DNA from: Rhodohalobacter sp. SW132
GTDB taxonomy: Bacteria; Bacteroidota; Rhodothermia; Balneolales; Balneolaceae
Length of the DNA: 64,000 nt
Assembly: GCF_003390325.1 (NCBI RefSeq)
Contig: NZ_QUOK01000010.1
Span: forward strand, 62,001-126,000
Reading direction: 5' to 3'
The position numbers and the translations under genes are program-made. Below, piece after piece: positions 13,904-40,096 of the stretch. Each line of letters begins with the position of its first letter. Position 1 is the stretch's first letter. The notes under the pieces are model-generated. The model was not told the DNA's origin and ran no database searches. It saw only the letters and a program-made list of their open reading frames with translations.

Positions 13904-14929
13904 ATGTCATACATCAAATCAGTACATGTGATGTTTAAAAAAATTGTCCCATTTGCGTTGGTGGCTCTCTTTTTCGGAGCTGAATTTGCAGGTGCCCAAA
14001 GTATATTGCCCACTTTGGGTGATTCGCGTTCGGGCACATCAGGGTTTCAGTTTCTGAAAATTAACGTCGATGCCCGCTCTTCCGCTATGGGATCATCAAA
14101 TGTGGCTGATGCAGAAGATGCATCGTCACTGTACCTGAACCCGGCGCTTGCATCACGTATGGAGAACAGCCAGTTCTACCTGAGTCACACCGAATATTTT
14201 GCAGATATATCGCTGAACTACGCCAGTTATGTGCACAAATTTAATTCTGTGGCGATCGGCGGATCACTAATGTTTCTCGACTCCGGAGAGATGGATGAAA
14301 CAACGGAATTTAATCCCTTCGGAACCGGACGGACATTTCGGACCATTCACATGGCGGGCGCTCTTACGTTCTCACAGAGACTTACCAATTATTTCAGCTA
14401 CGGAGCTTCCGTTAAATACCTGGATGAGCGAATTGAAGAGATACAGACGCAAACCTTCGTTGTGGATATTGGCTTCTTCTACCAGGTAGCCGAAACCGGC
14501 CTCCGTTTTGCAATCGGCTTTAACAATTTTGGGTTTGATGCATCACCAACAGGTGAAACCACCCGGCCGACACTGGATGGGCCGGTAACAGAAACGAATT
14601 TTGAAGATATCTCACCTCCCACCATGTTTATGATCGGCGCGGCTTACGATGCTTATGAGTCAGAAAACTTTAACGTGCTGGTTACCGGTCAGGTGACCAA
14701 TCCTTCAGATAACGCCGAGCGCTTCAGCCTGGGTTCGGAATTGGGTTTTATCGACAAATTTTTTGTGAGAGCGGGATATGAGTTTGGCGTGGAAGAGGCG
14801 CTCTACCCCAGTGGCGGTATCGGTATTAAAGTACCGCTTTTAAATCGCGATTTTGCCGTAGACTATGGCTTCAGCACTCGTGACAGACTTGGCAGCCTTC
14901 ACCGTTTTGCACTGAAATTTAATATTTAG
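13904..14929 (+). CDS. PorV/PorQ-family outer-membrane barrel protein
   Basis: About 341 residues with a signal peptide (VPFALVALFFGAEFAGAQ) and the family hallmark GFQFLKINVDARSSAMGSSNVADAEDASSLYLNPAL near the N-terminus. That is the FadL-like segment shared by PorV and PorQ, which in type IX secretion shuttle or hold sorting-domain cargo at the outer membrane. The rest is amphipathic beta-strand sequence ending LHRFALKFNI. Two ATGs are possible, 13904 (12 bases after the receptor stop, used here) and 13931, which gives a shorter n-region. Its place between a TonB receptor and a propeller lipoprotein, just downstream of sorting-domain proteins, fits a dedicated surface-export or anchoring role (inference). 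Confidence 0.85.
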   Translation: MSYIKSVHVMFKKIVPFALVALFFGAEFAGAQSILPTLGDSRSGTSGFQFLKINVDARSSAMGSSNVADAEDASSLYLNPALASRMENSQFYLSHTEYFADISLNYASYVHKFNSVAIGGSLMFLDSGEMDETTEFNPFGTGRTFRTIHMAGALTFSQRLTNYFSYGASVKYLDERIEEIQTQTFVVDIGFFYQVAETGLRFAIGFNNFGFDASPTGETTRPTLDGPVTETNFEDISPPTMFMIGAAYDAYESENFNVLVTGQVTNPSDNAERFSLGSELGFIDKFFVRAGYEFGVEEALYPSGGIGIKVPLLNRDFAVDYGFSTRDRLGSLHRFALKFNI

Positions 14930-14940
14930 TACCCGGAAGT

Positions 14941-16221
14941 ATGTATAAAAAATTCGCATTACCTATACTGGCAACTGTTCTTATCGTAACCGGCTGTGAC
15001 CTATTAGGTTCAAAAGGGGACAGTATTACCGATGAAATTTTTGAGCAGGGGCGGCAGGATCCAAATGTGATTGTAGAAGAGATCGGATATGCCGCACTGG
15101 TTCCTTTTTGGGATGATTTTAATCAGCCAACTGATGTTTTCGTCGGATATGATGAATTGATTTATGTAACGGACAGCGAAGGCGTTCACGTTCTGGACAG
15201 GGCCGGCAGACTATACGATACCTATCCTCTCAGAGGAGCTGTATCAGTAACGCAGGATCGGCTGCTGAACGTTTATGTTGCTGCCCGGTATGATACCGTC
15301 ATTACAGCTGTCGACCCCGATATAACCTGGGATCTGCCCGCTGTGTATAAACTGCAGAACCTGAATACAAACGATCCGGTAGAAACCGTGGATGTGCTGA
15401 AGCACCCGTTCCGAAGGTTCGACAGCAGCCGTTCAAATACAACTCTCGAACGATTCAGGCTGAACCGGAACAGCCAGAACAACGATGAACTTGTCGAAAT
15501 TACAAGCGTTGCGGTGATGAGTAACAACGAAATTTATATTACGCGGCGCGGCCCGTCGAACTCATCAACAACTCCGTTTCCCGATAATACGGTGTTGATA
15601 TTTAATCACGAGACAGAAGCCGGCGAGCGTACCGGCAGAATGAGAAATGTAGGCCGAATTAACCTGAGGCCCAACGAACCGGCAAACTTTTTCAGCGGTA
15701 TCGATATTTCGGATATCACTACATTCATCGGCCCGCCGCAAAGAGATAACCCGCCGGACGATCGCGGGTTTATCATCACCCAGGGAAATCCGGACCGAAA
15801 TATTCCGTTTCGTACACTTTGGATTAACGCTGTAAACACACCTGATGGAATTGAATATCGCCAGAACTCATCACTCCAGGTGCGGGATACGACCCGGGCA
15901 GATTCGTTTCTGTACGATCAAAATAAATTCAAAAGTCCGAGCGGAGTCGCCTACTCAGCCGACGCCCGTTCCCACATTTTTGTAGTGGATGCTGAAACGG
16001 ATAGTCTGTACCAGTTTCAGTCGAACGGAATTGAGGGGATTAATCCGCCGGCTGGGTCGGATCTTGAAAAAGCTGTGAACGTATCCTTTGGAGGAACCGG
16101 CAATGGCCCGCGTGAATTTAACAACCCGGGCGGAGTGGCCTATTTTCAGCGAATCGTATATGTTGCGGATACAGGGAATAACCGAATTGCACGGTACCGG
16201 CTGAATATCGATTTTGAGTAA
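14941..16221 (+). CDS. NHL/6-bladed beta-propeller lipoprotein
   Basis: A 426-residue protein with a lipoprotein signal (VLIVTGCDLLGSK, lipid Cys near residue 19). The body shows NHL-like propeller repeats: FNQPTDVFVGYDELIYVTDSEGVHVLDRAGR early, FKSPSGVAYSADARSHIFVVDAETDSLYQFQ and FNNPGGVAYFQRIVYVADTGNNRIARY near the end, the last being a nearly perfect NHL blade. Such lipoproteins are usually surface or periplasmic interaction scaffolds. The gene starts 11 bases after the PorV-like gene and is the last of the surface cluster. No enzyme motif. Confidence 0.82.
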   Translation: MYKKFALPILATVLIVTGCDLLGSKGDSITDEIFEQGRQDPNVIVEEIGYAALVPFWDDFNQPTDVFVGYDELIYVTDSEGVHVLDRAGRLYDTYPLRGAVSVTQDRLLNVYVAARYDTVITAVDPDITWDLPAVYKLQNLNTNDPVETVDVLKHPFRRFDSSRSNTTLERFRLNRNSQNNDELVEITSVAVMSNNEIYITRRGPSNSSTTPFPDNTVLIFNHETEAGERTGRMRNVGRINLRPNEPANFFSGIDISDITTFIGPPQRDNPPDDRGFIITQGNPDRNIPFRTLWINAVNTPDGIEYRQNSSLQVRDTTRADSFLYDQNKFKSPSGVAYSADARSHIFVVDAETDSLYQFQSNGIEGINPPAGSDLEKAVNVSFGGTGNGPREFNNPGGVAYFQRIVYVADTGNNRIARYRLNIDFE

Positions 16222-16474
16222 AATTACATTCTTTCAGTATTATGCGGGTTCGCAGTTTCTTCCCAGAGATTGCGAATCCATTTTTATTCCCCTTCATTAC
16301 TGGTTCTGAGAAACGAGATTGCTTTGTTTGAATTCTCCTAACCCATGGCTTGATGGTACGACCGCACAGTAGCCTGATAATTCTTTGTCAGATTCTCAAA
16401 ACGAAATCCTATCTTCAGGTGTTGAAATCTCTTAAATAAACCGCGTGGCGGCATCATCACCATAAAAAACCATT

Positions 16475-18040
16475 TTGCTGAAAACTGATTTTCTTGTCAT
16501 CGGTTCCGGTATCGCCGGTCTTAGTTTTGCTGTAAAAGCAGCACTCGCTTTTCCCGAACAATCCCTGACGATCGTAACAAAAGATTCGCTGATCGAAAGC
16601 AACACCCGGTATGCCCAGGGCGGTATTGCAGTAGTTACCGACTTTCTGAACGACGATTTTGAAAAACATACACAGGATACCCTGGTTGCAGGCGATGGTC
16701 TGTGTGATGAAGAGATTGTAAAAATCGTGGTGGAAGAGGGCCCCGATCGTCTTCGGGAAATTGTGGATATGGGTGTTCAGTTTGATAAAAACCCTGATGG
16801 AGAGTATCGGCTTGGTGTGGAAGGTGCCCACTCGGCTAAACGGATTTTACACCACCAGGATATGACCGGTTACGAAATTCAGAGTTCGCTGGTAAAAAAA
16901 ATCCGGTCGCTGGATAATGTTCAGATTCTTGAACACCATTTTGCCGTTGACCTGATCACCCAGCACCATTTTGGTGAAAAAGTTACGCGCAGCCGGAAAG
17001 ATACCCGCTGTTTTGGTGCGTACATCATGGATTTGAAAAGCAACCGGGTGGAAAAAGTTTCGGCCGGGGCAACTGTGCTGGCATCCGGCGGGGCAGGACA
17101 GGTGTATGATCTGACAACAAACCCGCCTGTTGCCACCGGCGACGGCGTGGCGATGGCCTATCGCGCCAAAGCGGAAGTCCAGCAGATGCAGTTTATACAG
17201 TTTCACCCTACAGCACTGTACGGCAGTAAGGGTGCGCGGGCTTTTTTGATTTCCGAGGCTGTTCGGGGGTTTGGAGCTATTTTAAAAACAGCAGACGAAA
17301 AACCGTTCATGAAAAAATATGATGAGCGGGGATCCCTCGCCTCCCGCGATATCGTAGCGCGTGCGATCGATACCGAGATGAAAGCCCGCGGAAAAGAGCA
17401 CGTGTACCTCGATTGCCGCGATCTGGATATCGAGGCGTTTAAAACTCACTTTCCTACCATCTATGAAACTTGCCTGGAGTACGGTATTGATGTAGCCAGA
17501 GATATGATCCCGGTAGCCCCGGCGGCGCACTATATGTGCGGAGGCGTGAAAGCGGATGAGTGGGGGAGAAGTTCTATTGATCGTCTCTATTGCTGCGGCG
17601 AAGTAGCACAAACCGGTCTTCACGGGGCAAACCGCCTCGCTTCAAATTCACTCCTGGAAGCCCTGGTATTTGCCGATCGATGTTTTCGAGATCTTCAGAA
17701 AAAGTCTGGCGAACTTGAGGTCAGAGATGCCATTCCTGACTGGAAGACAGAGGGAACAACCGAACCAAAAGAGTGGGTGCTGATTAATCACAACCGGAAG
17801 GAAGTGAAGCGTCTGATGAACAATTATATTGGGATTGTGCGGTCTGATGAACGTCTGCGCCGTGCCGAAAAGCGCCTGAGAGTGATTCACGAAGAGACCG
17901 AGCAGCTCTATAAAACCACAACCCTTTCTCCGCAGCTCGGCGAACTCCGAAATATGATCAACGTATCCTGGCTGATCATCCGCCAGTCGAAGGAGCAGAA
18001 AGAAAACCGGGGCACGTTTTATAATATCGATTTGGCCTAA
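16475..18040 (+). CDS. nadB: L-aspartate oxidase
   Basis: A 521-residue flavoenzyme that oxidises L-aspartate to iminoaspartate, the first step of de novo NAD synthesis; NadA then uses the product. The N-terminus FLVIGSGIAGLSFAVKAAL is the FAD-binding Rossmann motif, followed by NTRYAQGGIAVV. FHPTALYG, the EAVRGFGA segment, APAAHYMCGG and LHGANRLASNSLLEALVF are hallmarks that separate NadB/fumarate-reductase flavoproteins from other oxidases. A C-terminal helical domain is present (RLRRAEKRL ... ELRNMINVSWLI). The only start that fits is TTG at 16475, since a TAA lies four codons upstream and there is no ATG before the FAD motif. nadC and nadA follow downstream on the same strand. Confidence 0.96.
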   Translation: MLKTDFLVIGSGIAGLSFAVKAALAFPEQSLTIVTKDSLIESNTRYAQGGIAVVTDFLNDDFEKHTQDTLVAGDGLCDEEIVKIVVEEGPDRLREIVDMGVQFDKNPDGEYRLGVEGAHSAKRILHHQDMTGYEIQSSLVKKIRSLDNVQILEHHFAVDLITQHHFGEKVTRSRKDTRCFGAYIMDLKSNRVEKVSAGATVLASGGAGQVYDLTTNPPVATGDGVAMAYRAKAEVQQMQFIQFHPTALYGSKGARAFLISEAVRGFGAILKTADEKPFMKKYDERGSLASRDIVARAIDTEMKARGKEHVYLDCRDLDIEAFKTHFPTIYETCLEYGIDVARDMIPVAPAAHYMCGGVKADEWGRSSIDRLYCCGEVAQTGLHGANRLASNSLLEALVFADRCFRDLQKKSGELEVRDAIPDWKTEGTTEPKEWVLINHNRKEVKRLMNNYIGIVRSDERLRRAEKRLRVIHEETEQLYKTTTLSPQLGELRNMINVSWLIIRQSKEQKENRGTFYNIDLA

Positions 18041-33915: not shown

Positions 33916-34212
33916 TTATAATTTCCCCCAATTCTTTGGATCTTTAAAGGTGTTTAATACAGATCGCACGATTATAGTCTTTTGTTTCTCGTTCACTGAA
34001 TAGTGAATCATATAAGGATAAATCTTCAAAGGGAGGCATCGAACATTATCATAACGTATTTGAAAGAATGGATTTTCACTCAATGTCACCAATCTATTAT
34101 TTAAATCATCTTCGAATTTCGAACCCAAACCGGGCTCATTTTCTTCATAATAGTCTATAGCCTCTTGAATATCATCAATAGCTCTCCTGTCTAAAAGAAT
34201 AGAAAAAGTCAT
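33916..34212 (-). CDS. RelE/ParE-family toxin
   Basis: About 98 residues of the RelE/ParE superfamily. It begins TFSILLDRRAIDDIQEAIDYYEEN, followed by PGLGSKFEDDLNNRLVTLSENP, and ends with the beta-sheet region YPYMIHYSVNEKQKTIIVRSVLNTFKDP. That is the family layout: two N-terminal helices, then a four-stranded sheet with basic residues. The ATG at 34212 overlaps the last base of the antitoxin stop, and a TTG 3 bases upstream is less likely. Members either cleave ribosome-bound mRNA (RelE) or poison gyrase (ParE); the sequence does not decide which. It sits inside the mutA-mutB region on the same strand. Confidence 0.87.
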   Translation of the reverse strand: MTFSILLDRRAIDDIQEAIDYYEENEPGLGSKFEDDLNNRLVTLSENPFFQIRYDNVRCLPLKIYPYMIHYSVNEKQKTIIVRSVLNTFKDPKNWGKL

Positions 34213-34421
34213 CAACTTTCAGACTTAAACATGAGTTGTTTTCTGGCTTCCTCCCAAGAGACTAAATCATCCTGATTTGCCGATCTTATTCGCTCTCTGA
34301 CGATCTCTTTATGCTCTTCGGGAATATCGGGTTCCTCAGATGATGTTAGTCCGAGCTGATTGATCAATTCAATCACGAAATCTACTTTATCGTCCGGTAC
34401 ATCGAGAGTTATTTTTTTCAT
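34212..34421 (-). CDS. antitoxin, addiction-module component family
   Basis: A 69-residue partner of the toxin gene that overlaps its end by one base (TGATG). It starts MKKITLDVPDDKVDFVIELINQLG. The C-terminal half has IPEEHKEIVRERIRSANQDD and SWEEARKQL, a pattern typical of short antitoxins that accompany RelE/ParE toxins. It would bind and neutralise the toxin through its C-terminal half and probably repress the promoter through the N-terminal half. The start ATG has an AT-rich region behind it with no obvious operator. Confidence 0.8.
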   Translation of the reverse strand: MKKITLDVPDDKVDFVIELINQLGLTSSEEPDIPEEHKEIVRERIRSANQDDLVSWEEARKQLMFKSES

Positions 34422-37105: not shown

Positions 37106-37522
37106 ATGTCAGATTATTCTGATATCATATTTCTGATGGGTGCCATCATCATGTTTTCTTTTCTCACGATGTCTGTTAACCGGACCATCCTGATGAACGA
37201 GATGAACAGAGTTGGACATCAGACCGATTACTACGCGCTTTCAGTAGCCCAGGAGACGATTGATGAGATTCGGTGGATTCGTTCAGAAAGTGCCTTGAAT
37301 CAAAAACTCAATGAATTTCCTAAAGTGATTGAGTACAGGGCCGATTCGGATCAGGCAGGATCAATTCCATTTACGGTTGATCTTTTTGAAACAACCGCTT
37401 CTATTGAAAACGACGACATTCGTTCGATAGAATTACGGATCGATGTGTCGAGTGATTTTGGAATCGGAGGAGAGGGCGGAAACCCGGTGCAGCTATTATT
37501 CACTAAATCATTTGTCAAATAG
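37106..37522 (+). CDS. small single-pass pilin-like protein, function unknown
   Basis: A 138-residue protein with an N-terminal hydrophobic helix (residues about 8-24, IIFLMGAIIMFSFLTMSV) that starts almost at the first residue. A polar helix follows (NEMNRVGHQTDYYALSVAQETIDEI), and then a beta-rich tail ending QLLFTKSFVK. This resembles the long N-terminal helix of type IV pilins and minor pseudopilins. A prepilin peptidase G-F/E cleavage site is not evident, so an atypical pilin or a helix-anchored periplasmic protein is equally possible. It is the first of at least four genes in a row. Confidence 0.6.
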   Translation: MSDYSDIIFLMGAIIMFSFLTMSVNRTILMNEMNRVGHQTDYYALSVAQETIDEIRWIRSESALNQKLNEFPKVIEYRADSDQAGSIPFTVDLFETTASIENDDIRSIELRIDVSSDFGIGGEGGNPVQLLFTKSFVK

Positions 37523-37537
37523 GATGGAGAACTAGGT

Positions 37538-38107
37538 ATGAATATTGGAATTACAATCAGTTATATCGTTGGCGGACTTCTTCTTATTTCCATACTGACG
37601 CTGAACAATACAGTGATGCAGGATTCATACAAGCAAACTGTAGAGATGACTGCCGGCACACAGGTGGATGAAATTCGCAGACTGGTGATGCACGATATGC
37701 AATTCCTGGCCTTTGGTACGAATAGTGAAATCCTGAATTTTAGTGAAAATCATCTTCGTTTCAGGTCAACGTTCAGAGGCCAAAATCGGGTCTTTAGCTG
37801 GCAATTACTGAATGCTCCATATAATGAAACCAGTAATCCCAACGACAGAGTATTGCAGAGAAACGGCCCGATGGATGACAAGCCGGGCAGCACAATGTCC
37901 AGGTATCCGGCAGTTCGATTTCAGGTCACAGCGTTTAGCGATGAGGATGGTCTGGTCGAGGCAACATCAAAAGAGCAGGTAAGAAGTATTTTGATCGAAG
38001 TTATTGTGGAATCTGCTGAGCCGGTTGGATCACACACAGATGGGTCCCCCCGGTACGCCCGAACCGGATGGAAAAAACTGTTCCTTCCTGATAATCTTAT
38101 GATATAA
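37538..38107 (+). CDS. second pilin-like membrane-anchored protein
   Basis: A 189-residue protein built like its upstream neighbour: N-terminal hydrophobic helix (ITISYIVGGLLLISILTLNN, residues 4-23), then a helix MQDSYKQTVEMTAGTQVDEIRRLVMHDM, then a beta-rich globular part (LRFRSTFRGQNRVFSWQLL; VRFQVTAFS) ending WKKLFLPDNLMI. The layout matches minor pilins/pseudopilins such as GspI/GspJ-like subunits in outline, but I see no family signature. The start is preceded by GGAGAAC, a fair ribosome-binding site 7 bases away. It lies 15 bases after the first gene, so it is co-transcribed. Confidence 0.6.
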   Translation: MNIGITISYIVGGLLLISILTLNNTVMQDSYKQTVEMTAGTQVDEIRRLVMHDMQFLAFGTNSEILNFSENHLRFRSTFRGQNRVFSWQLLNAPYNETSNPNDRVLQRNGPMDDKPGSTMSRYPAVRFQVTAFSDEDGLVEATSKEQVRSILIEVIVESAEPVGSHTDGSPRYARTGWKKLFLPDNLMI

Positions 38108-38139
38108 AAAACTAAAATCTTCACACAAACCACTCCATT

Positions 38140-39528
38140 ATGGGAAGAGGATTACTTATTCTCGTCAGCGGCATGTTTATTGTTGTAGGCATTGTTCAAA
38201 GTGGTATCAATAACCGGAATACACTGTTACCGGAGCGGGCGATGCACTACCAGGAAGAGCTTCATGCCACGAATGCGCTGAACAGCGCAATGGATTATGC
38301 ACTTCGCGAGATTATTCACGATCAAAGCTGGTCGGCAGGTTTGGCTGACGATAATTTTCTTGAAGCCTCGGTAAATATCACAGTTCATGGCCAGCATTCA
38401 CCGGACATACCTCCAAATAATATTCCTGTTTGGGATGAATATACGCTCCTGGTTCATGGAGTGGCTGAGTACGAAAATCAAATCGCTACATCAGAATTGT
38501 ATCTGCGAAAAGATTCCTTTTCAAAGTATTCCTATTTCACAGATTATGAACCCAGTAACATCTATTTCATCTGGTCTGATGAGCTTTCCGGCCCTGTTCA
38601 CTCCAACGGCCGATTTAATATTGCCGGTGATCCAACATTCTACGGAATGGTCACCAGTCCCGAGATGTGGCACGGATATGACGCAATGGAAAACGATCCT
38701 AATTTCTACGGGGGTGAAGATTTTAGCGCCGACCACAGGGATCCGCCCACACTTTTTTCGCTTGATGTGTTAAAAAATGATGCCTCATCCAACGGCCTCT
38801 CATTTGACAATGAAGTACGTCTTGAGTTTCTGGATGACGGTTCTCTGTTTGTTCGGGAAAAAACCGGGAACTGGTGGAGTAATGCCAGCGAATATACTGT
38901 GGATCTGTCGATGTACAACGGAGTGATTTCATCGTCTGAAAATATCTCTATGCACGGTACCATCTCCGGTCAGTATACCGTTCATTCTTCGGAGAATATC
39001 ACCATTACGGGAGATATCCGTTACAAAAAAGATCCGGCTGAGTTTTCCGATTCAAGTGATCTGCTCGGCATTGTAAGTGAAAAAGAAGTGATGATCGATA
39101 AAAATGCGCATCGTCACGAAGGAAATTCAAACCTGACCATCCAGGCATCGATCATGGCGCTTGATAAATCATTCAGTGCCGAAGATTATAACACAGGCGG
39201 CGGACGCGGAGATCTGAATCTTTTGGGCGGAATTGTCCAGCAGCAGCGGGGTCCTATGGGAACCTTCAGCGGCGGATCCATTCAGTCCGGATTCAACAAA
39301 CAGTACGAATATGATGAAAGGTTGCTGAACATGAACCCGCCAAGTTTTCCAAGAGAAAGTTTTTTCTCCATTGTACACTGGCTTACAAATACAGCGCCAA
39401 ATCTAACCGCAACACCAGGAAACGGAAACGGGAATGGAAATAACCAGGGGAACAGTGGCAATAATGGAAATGGCAACAATGGGAATAATGGAAACAATGG
39501 CAACGGGAATGGAAACCGTAATAACTGA
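38140..39528 (+). CDS. PilX-like membrane-anchored surface protein with Asn/Gly-rich tail
   Basis: A 462-residue protein. Residues 4-23 (GLLILVSGMFIVVGIVQSGI) form an N-terminal membrane helix, followed by a helix YQEELHATNALNSAMDYALREI as in PilX-type pilin-associated proteins. The central part, about residues 130-330, has parallel-beta-like repeats (GPVHSNGRFNIAGDPTFYGMVTSP; NGVISSSENISMHGTISGQYTVHSSENITITGDI), resembling the DUF4900-type region. The last 45 residues are low-complexity Asn and Gly encoded by GGAAAYGG-like codon repeats. The third and largest member of the operon; likely the exposed tip or adhesive component (inference). Confidence 0.68.
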   Translation: MGRGLLILVSGMFIVVGIVQSGINNRNTLLPERAMHYQEELHATNALNSAMDYALREIIHDQSWSAGLADDNFLEASVNITVHGQHSPDIPPNNIPVWDEYTLLVHGVAEYENQIATSELYLRKDSFSKYSYFTDYEPSNIYFIWSDELSGPVHSNGRFNIAGDPTFYGMVTSPEMWHGYDAMENDPNFYGGEDFSADHRDPPTLFSLDVLKNDASSNGLSFDNEVRLEFLDDGSLFVREKTGNWWSNASEYTVDLSMYNGVISSSENISMHGTISGQYTVHSSENITITGDIRYKKDPAEFSDSSDLLGIVSEKEVMIDKNAHRHEGNSNLTIQASIMALDKSFSAEDYNTGGGRGDLNLLGGIVQQQRGPMGTFSGGSIQSGFNKQYEYDERLLNMNPPSFPRESFFSIVHWLTNTAPNLTATPGNGNGNGNNQGNSGNNGNGNNGNNGNNGNGNGNRNN

Positions 39529-39552
39529 AACATCTAAAGAGGAGAAAGCAAG

Positions 39553-39945
39553 ATGAAAAAAATGATTTTAATTTGTGTAACTGGGCTTATGATTCAGGGA
39601 TTTGGCAGTTTATATGCCCAGTCTGAGATCACTTTCCAGGTAGATATCACTCACCTGCTTGACGGCAGTGAATTTGATGAAAACAGGGATCGCGTTGAGC
39701 TGATCGGTAACCGGAGCCCGCTTTCAGCGATTCAGCCCCAACAAATGAAGCCTGATGAAAATAACCCGAATCTGTTTAAGGTTTCTGTAACCTTTCCGGG
39801 GAGTCTGTCAGGGAATACACTTGAGTACCAATTTCGGGTGATGCTGAATAACCGCTACCGGAACGAAGATATTCCCCGATCTACGCGGATACCATCCGGC
39901 AATCAAACGCTCGATTCAATCTATTTCAATAGTTATGCGTGGTGA
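39553..39945 (+). CDS. small secreted protein with starch-binding-like beta-sandwich
   Basis: A 130-residue protein with a signal peptide (residues 1-22, ending SLYAQ) and a GAGGAGAAAG ribosome-binding site 5-10 bases before the ATG. The mature part reads ITFQVDITHLLDGSEFDENRDRVELIGNRSPLS, a pattern similar to the beginning of CBM20-like or E-set beta-sandwich modules. It then has NNPNLFKVSVTFPG and LEYQFRVMLNNRY. No catalytic site. The fourth gene of the pilin-like operon; carbohydrate binding would be a guess. Confidence 0.6.
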   Translation: MKKMILICVTGLMIQGFGSLYAQSEITFQVDITHLLDGSEFDENRDRVELIGNRSPLSAIQPQQMKPDENNPNLFKVSVTFPGSLSGNTLEYQFRVMLNNRYRNEDIPRSTRIPSGNQTLDSIYFNSYAW

Positions 39946-40096
39946 TATTGAAGGGCAGTTCTTTTACTATACTCACCTTTTCGAACTGGCCCGAATGAGT
40001 TTGGTGTGGGATAAACCGCACCGTCTGCCGGTTGAATTTTATAAGGCTGGGAAAAAATCGAGCATCAGTGTGAAGGAGCGGCTGTTTCGGTTTTGA
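39935..40096 (+). CDS. possible 53-residue protein overlapping the secreted protein gene
   Basis: An ATG inside the last codons of the secreted protein gene opens a 53-codon frame. It begins MRGDIEGQFFYYTHLFELAR, continues with WDKPHRLPVEFYKAGKKSS and ends KERLFRF before TGA. The composition is protein-like (balanced charged and aromatic residues, no long runs), and the overlap would give translational coupling. There is no recognised domain, no signal peptide and no membrane helix. The remaining gap to recN (40097-40323) shows nothing else. Could also be the remnant of a longer gene. Confidence 0.4.
   Translation: MRGDIEGQFFYYTHLFELARMSLVWDKPHRLPVEFYKAGKKSSISVKERLFRF

Follow-up and report, generated by a model that had tools for sequence, protein, structure and literature searches.

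Type IV filaments, a superfamily that includes type IVa pili, type II secretion systems and mannose-sensitive haemagglutinin (MSH) pili, are recognised among other things by subunits with a class III signal peptide, a leader of 6–26 amino acids ending in Gly. In the available text of one paper, cleavage of this leader by a dedicated peptidase counts as a universal property that defines type IV filaments (PMC4471445), and across the available portions of two papers leader and peptidase are taken either to be universal or to be common to different systems (PMC4471445, PMC6668835). MSH loci are described there as being without a peptidase gene, yet their genomes carry one (PMC6668835). Here we report on four adjacent genes, A-B-C-D, in a 64,000-nucleotide stretch (the window) of the Rhodohalobacter sp. 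SW132 genome, contig C10:62001-126000 of G000, of which A, B and C are probably minor pilins of a type IV filament machine built without prepilin processing. Throughout, G, L and C followed by a number denote genomes, fetched loci and contigs, respectively.

The machine shares with the superfamily an assembly ATPase with an MshEN domain, a PilC platform, a PilT-like ATPase, putative PilM/N/O-like proteins, a secretin and pilin-fold subunits of the I-J-K series. It differs in having no class III signal peptide, no Gly at position −1, no Glu5 in A or in the major pilin of relatives, and no detectable prepilin peptidase in the genome. The GspI-GspJ-GspK tip complex of type II secretion likewise consists of three minor pilins in the same order, B having the GspJ fold in its model, and differs in that A-B-C are leaderless and that in C a predicted beta-solenoid takes the place of the helical insert of GspK (PMC6561018). 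ComZ of Thermus thermophilus (6QVI) combines a GspK-like pilin domain with an ice-binding-protein-like solenoid between the last two strands, and a tip position has been argued for it (PMC6561018); C, likened to it through a model that has such a solenoid before the last strand, differs in being leaderless and part of a leaderless machine. In the Bacteroidetes, a type II secretion-like cluster of Cytophaga hutchinsonii also comprises a secretin, ATPase, platform and pilins, but differs in its A24 peptidase and in its major pseudopilin, which is of the T2S-G type (PMC5553014). In Melioribacter roseus (Ignavibacteria), pilT, pilQ, pilB and pilC were reported and pilA and pilD were not found, the same gene pattern by published description, which a leaderless reading would explain but which its authors read as an incomplete set (PMC3534657). 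These comparisons draw on the available portions of the papers cited.

Pilin identity and N-termini of A, B and C

All four genes lie on the forward strand with 15–32 bases between them: A at 37106..37522 (138 amino acids), B at 37538..38107 (189), C at 38140..39528 (462) and D at 39553..39945 (130). A sequence-only reading of the window had described three consecutive proteins of increasing size that start with a hydrophobic helix, followed by a small secreted protein, and this description is borne out; one hydrophobic helix stands directly at the N-terminus of each of A, B and C, and D has a signal peptide, as judged by eye. The interval it assigned to the set, 37106-40096, is right for the four genes up to 39945, whereas its end takes in a 53-codon frame (39935-40096, forward strand) for which we found no evidence of gene status. 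The nearest named relatives of the genome are Balneolaceae, and the sister genome G003 (locus L084) carries orthologues of A-B-C-D in unchanged order, with amino acid identities of 58%, 65%, 72% and 49%, respectively. Conservation of the four-gene order, which the same reading had proposed to check, thus holds in the sister, and the A-B-C-D type also occurs in L169. Nonsynonymous divergence (dN) from the sister is 0.31 for A, 0.26 for B, 0.19 for C and 0.42 for D, and synonymous divergence is 1.75 for A and 4.5 for C, while B and D have reached saturation, hence these are selected proteins rather than chance open reading frames (ORFs).

Searches of Pfam, NCBIfam and PDB sequences found an informative family for none of A, B and D, and the Pfam GspJ and PilW families gave no match up to E 1 against 39 members of the B family. 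We assembled leaderless family sets for A (91 sequences), B (94) and C (87), all from fetched loci and phylogenetically uneven, with exact duplicates and ORFs outside length limits removed; set C additionally leaves out L107, L137, L142, L150 and L162, which lack the pilin helix or are truncated. Profiles that drew on leaderless sequences alone matched ORFs in canonical type IV pilus loci of other phyla, 28 with the A profile (best E 1.7e-7) and 11 with the B profile (best E 4.9e-8). A prepilin motif was present in 27 of the former and all 11 of the latter, and reversed decoys gave a best E of 0.07 for the A profile and nothing for the B profile.

The structure check for a pilin fold was run on B and C, and recovered the GspJ fold for B and a ComZ/pilin fold for C. 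The AlphaFold2 model of B (39-sequence alignment, predicted local distance difference test (pLDDT) 90.3) shows a 55-residue helix followed by a beta domain. Compared with solved structures, it is closest to TTHA1219 and to GspJ/EpsJ/XcpW (Z 9.0–10.4, next row 5.3), and the top ten entries are all pilins or pseudopilins, while plain Foldseek was weak (best E 0.015).

For C, the model (35 sequences, pLDDT 88.8) best matches the Thermus tip pilin ComZ (6qvi, Foldseek E 5e-10), with Z 16.1 but a root-mean-square deviation (rmsd) of 10.5 over two domains. Residues 124-393 (38509..39318, forward strand) match ice-binding beta-solenoids (Z 13–15, rmsd ~3 over ~185 residues), and this solenoid is inserted ahead of the last strand of the pilin fold, 410-418 in the model. 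The minor pilin PilA of S. sanguinis matches model residues 31..419 (Z 9.4). A Gly/Asn-rich tail (residues 427-462, 39418..39525, forward strand) is missing from most orthologues. Database searches returned for C a sub-threshold DUF4900 match alone; the comparison with DUF4900 (PF16241) proposed in the sequence-only reading held for relatives, 30 of 35 family members matching at E<=1 (best 5.9e-11), and failed for the window's own C, whose 23.1 bits lie under the curated cut-off of 29.4.

Given the folds of B and C, and given that the A and B profiles match canonical prepilins, A-B-C are the counterparts, by kind as well as by gene order, of GspI-GspJ-GspK or PilV-PilW-PilX. By its profile, A is assigned to the minor pilins of the GspI/PilV kind; by their models, B belongs to the GspJ/PilW kind and C is a predicted ComZ-like tip pilin of the GspK/PilX kind. 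C could serve adhesion or DNA binding; a ComEC homologue lies ~5 kb from one A-B-C-D set in L050, which is no more than suggestive. As a separate observation, L137, L142, L150 and L162, from Calditrichaeota and others, encode secreted proteins that have the C-type solenoid region and no pilin helix.

Clear prepilin cleavage sites had been reported missing from the window proteins, and their absence proves to be the rule across the family. An in-frame stop lies 4, 6 and 9 codons upstream of the starts of A, B and C, respectively; between stop and start, there is no start codon before A's ATG and a rare one, ATT, before C only. Compared with the sister, nucleotide conservation of A starts at the ATG and is coding-like from there, in this one pair. 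Taking the longest possible ORF, the helix begins within the first 8 residues in 87/91 A, 92/94 B and 85/87 C sequences, and six of the eight exceptions have a second Met at the usual start. No member of the A, B or C set (91, 94 and 87 sequences, respectively) has a G-x4-E motif in its first 30 residues.

Alignment to canonical prepilins locates the missing features. Canonical Glu5 falls on residue 9 of A in 27/27 motif-bearing matches (partly by extrapolation) and on residue 4 of B in 9/11, and its register for C varied among matches. The Glu5 column is acidic in 2/91 A and 29/94 B sequences, and Gly at −1 is absent in 89/91 A. The start Met lies near −4 in A, +2 in B and −3 in the major pilin relative to the canonical register. 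Residue 6 of A is D in 37, Q in 28 and E in 21 of the 91 sequences; taking it as Glu5, with Met at −1, was rejected, as Glu5 falls on residue 9 in every motif-bearing match.

Machinery, major pilin and prepilin peptidase

The sequence-only reading had seen no ATPase or secretin gene nearby, and indeed none of the PilB, PilC and secretin matches of G000 is on C10; all are on C2 and C3. On the reverse strand of C2 (locus L040) lies a cluster of a 590-amino-acid PilB-like ATPase (15842-17611; T2SSE 327 bits against a cut-off of 24.9, MshEN 28 bits), a cyclic nucleotide monophosphate (cNMP)-binding protein, a PilT-like ATPase (13906-15162; 116 bits), a 580-amino-acid PilM/N-like protein, a PilO-like protein and a 622-amino-acid secretin (102 bits, cut-off 27.5) with a weak SPOR tail. 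A PilC/GspF platform of 442 amino acids (L180:8168-9493; 99.6 bits, cut-off 25.2) is not near PilB in this genome and sits on a separate contig, C3. G000 also has a second triplet, A'-B'-C', at L039:8751-11115 on contig C1.

Relatives join these parts in one operon, in the order PilC-PilB-A-(cNMP)-B-C-PilT-PilMN-PilO-PilQ, for example in L168, L176, L177 and L178, where the position of the PilM/N-like and PilO-like proteins fits an alignment-complex role. The triplet lies between PilB and PilT in 11 of 20 stretches (L167-L172, L174, L176-L179), and in L169 (G074) it is the window-type A-B-C-D that does so (C E 2e-74, D E 9e-15). Across 97 genomes, 68 have both a C-type gene and PilB and 26 have neither; PilB alone was seen in two, G002 (74% complete) and G071 (a fragment match), and C alone in one, G029 (76% complete). 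A Fisher test on this co-occurrence ignores kinship among the genomes. The idea that a small group of minor pilins works together with machinery encoded elsewhere is supported by the folds of B and C, the A and B profiles, the machinery on other contigs and the operon of relatives. L174 (G001:C205) and L178 (G051:C38) contain a divergent copy of the entire leaderless operon; G001 carries an ordinary PilB too, and its two PilB copies fall apart in the tree. At L119:6525-8312 of Candidatus Chrysopegis kryptomonas, PilB is split into two ORFs (354 and 234 amino acids), a frameshift or assembly error.

Upstream of PilC, directly or with one gene between, relatives encode a protein of 121–161 amino acids starting MGQQQLLL. 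As 37 such major pilins were picked by their N-terminal motif, this choice itself accounts for part of the conservation seen at their N-termini. Their profile matches canonical major pilins (GFTLIELLVV...) from E 4.2e-6, canonical Glu5 falling on residue 8 in 24/26, and residue 8 is Leu in 37/37. The MGQQQ pilin occurs in Balneolota, in the class-level relatives G094-G096, and in Ignavibacteria, Kryptonia, Calditrichota, Electryonea and KSB1 loci. An O-antigen ligase gene with a Wzy_C domain lies between major pilin and PilC in 4/4 loci (L206, L207, L211, L212), which suggests that the leaderless pilin may be O-glycosylated; O-antigen ligase genes are found beside glycosylated pilins. In 2/4 major pilins examined, the best Pfam match was to MacB_PCD, below cut-off, and was given no weight.

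A maximum-likelihood ATPase tree of 59 sequences (36 from leaderless loci, 22 canonical, one from a second system described below) placed all 36 leaderless-locus ATPases on one side of a branch with 100/100 support and a length of 1.51. Since the canonical sampling is narrow (Actinomycetota, Omnitrophota), one origin of the leaderless-locus ATPases is supported by these sequences within this sample only.

The genome search for pilB, pilD and pilQ that had been suggested gave a divided answer in G000, a draft genome of 98.06% completeness: PilB and secretin are present, while an A24 peptidase does not pass its cut-off (PF01478 best E 0.087, PF06750 best E 0.098). No N_methyl match, the mark of a canonical prepilin, was obtained in this genome either. 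PF01478 peptidases occur in 7 and N_methyl in 12 of the 97 genomes, and 63 of the 70 PilB genomes lack a peptidase match, including the single-contig assemblies G035, G066, G095 and G096. Six of the seven PF01478 genomes have a second, distinct T2SSE protein of ~390–400 amino acids, G037 being without one. Five genomes (G002, G005, G013, G055, G080) have N_methyl and no peptidase match, for which incomplete assembly or foreign contigs are a possible cause. Among 27 named genomes that carry leaderless loci, peptidase was absent from 11, of which four are Balneolia, four Kryptonia and two Ignavibacteria. It was present for all five canonical control loci (L128, L133, L138, L143, L160) and for L104.

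About seven Balneolaceae possess a second, canonical filament system, a natural control within the same genomes. In L164 and L165 (G043:C1:3258100-3297900), it comprises PilD and N_methyl pilins along with a separate ATPase and secretin. Its PilB (389 amino acids, 464 bits) falls on the canonical side of the ATPase tree, the secretin scores 156.8 bits and the peptidase is nearby.

Proposed working and rival explanations

By the features tested, with neither a leader nor a detectable peptidase, this is not a canonical type IV pilus, though its parts are homologous and it most likely works alike. Pilins made without a leader would have no need of a prepilin peptidase. We infer that the N-terminal helix of each pilin would be put into the inner membrane by the signal recognition particle and Sec, so that the globular domain comes to lie in the periplasm. 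Pairing of A, B and C may then give a tip complex capped by C, which PilB and PilC would extend through the secretin, followed, in relatives, by the leaderless major pilin. The PilT-like ATPase would retract the filament. The solenoid of C would face outward and bind a surface, polymer or DNA, and D, presumably exported by Sec, may sit on the tip or modify it as a possible tip partner.

With rather less confidence, we favour the view that one branch, in Balneolota, Rhodothermia relatives, Ignavibacteria, Kryptonia, Calditrichota, Electryonea and KSB1, gave up prepilin processing: its pilins would be translated in a mature-like, leaderless form, with Glu5 lacking from the major pilin and A, and the peptidase would have disappeared wherever no further system depends on it. 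If this is true, cleavage and the Glu5 contact are not required for type IV filament assembly. Cleavage, a free mature N-terminus and Glu5 would be inessential for extracting pilins from the membrane, a question thereby made experimental. It would account for pilB, pilC, pilT and pilQ without pilA or pilD in the Melioribacter roseus genome paper, and motif-based pilin finders would overlook such pili throughout the Fibrobacteres–Chlorobi–Bacteroidetes (FCB) group. In the open-licence literature, outside which most subscription papers and all preprints fall, we found no description of leaderless pilins. Hence, of the undescribed system that the sequence-only reading had suspected, the leaderless, peptidase-less variant appears to be new, whereas the machine itself is of a known type.

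Several results weigh against the proposed explanation. No window protein matched a Pfam pilin family, and the PilN and PilO matches lie under their Pfam cut-offs (17.9 and 18.1 bits). The major pilin is missing at the PilC-adjacent site in G000, the only site at which it was looked for. Peptidase is present in 16/27 of the named genomes with leaderless loci, including KSB1 and Calditrichota; three metagenome-assembled genomes with canonical-type loci (L101, L103, L122) also have no peptidase match, so that little can be concluded from its absence in draft genomes. A has a negatively charged N-terminus (mean net charge −1.02 over residues 1-8), which lends no support to an N-inside topology and casts real doubt on simple N-inside insertion.

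Of the alternatives, a type II secretion-like pump is the most serious, and although less probable than a surface pilus it has a fair claim to attention. The triplet would then be the tip of a pseudopilus, in keeping with the presence of GspJ of type II secretion among the closest structures to B and with the type II secretion-like clusters known from Bacteroidetes such as Cytophaga (PMC5553014, available text). The Cytophaga-type cluster does, however, have a peptidase (PMC5553014), and the operon described here includes a PilT-like second ATPase and a PilM/N/O-like arrangement. The Wzy_C gene between major pilin and PilC also argues for a pilus.

That the genes are the relic of a type IV pilus, with major pilin and peptidase gone and the rest decaying, seems unlikely. 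The empty PilC-adjacent site in G000 recurs in G003, while G004, with the same neighbours, has a major pilin there, and the Melioribacter roseus authors took their own set as incomplete (PMC3534657, available text). The genes are nevertheless intact and under purifying selection (dN 0.19–0.42), the co-occurrence of triplet and PilB over the 97 genomes is near-perfect, and several FCB phyla share the leaderless form with a major pilin next to PilC.

We regard hidden processing, whether the peptidase or the true start codon has escaped recognition, as more unlikely still. ComZ itself was overlooked by a pilin predictor, its motifs lacking (PMC6561018, available text), and an acidic residue is kept at the Glu5 column in part of the B and two of the A sequences. 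The upstream stops of A, B and C, however, leave just 3, 5 and 8 codons, respectively, before the start, with the rare ATT in C only, and both the coding-like conservation from A's ATG onward and the near-general lack of Gly at −1 in A speak against a longer precursor.

Least probable is that A-B-C-D belong to a chaperone-usher-like surface system instead of a type IV machine: of 24 distinct C loci for which 7 kb or more of downstream sequence was available, 10 have DUF4402 proteins nearby together with proteins resembling a chaperone and an outer membrane usher, and PapD_N matches weakly in 5/8 of the chaperones, but no such usher is beside the other 14 loci, the window included, and the pilin folds and the presence of A-B-C-D within the pilus operon of L169 favour the type IV filament machine.

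Associated clusters and neighbouring genes

Downstream of A-B-C-D in L043, L045, L047, L049, L053, L056, L058, L090 and L095 is a conserved gene cluster that encodes DUF4402 proteins, a chaperone resembling PapD and an usher-like outer membrane protein of 950–1240 amino acids, often with SPOR domains. This cluster is possibly an undescribed chaperone-usher type. Directly upstream of A-B-C-D, L043:11561-16879 (G042) encodes a 1773-amino-acid protein that combines Invasin_D3 repeats with a type IX secretion tail, and giant proteins upstream of the set also occur in L046, L049 and L058.

D orthologues are found downstream of C in relatives. CBM_20 matched weakly in 3 of 15 D family members (best E 0.0089), and the window's own D gave no such match.

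In the window, A-B-C-D are flanked by what we take, from their sequences, to be a methylmalonyl-CoA mutase-like gene and a recN-like gene. At 33916-34421, a pair of short ORFs that overlap on the reverse strand (99 and 69 amino acids) have, by eye, the look of a ParE/RelE-type toxin and its antitoxin.

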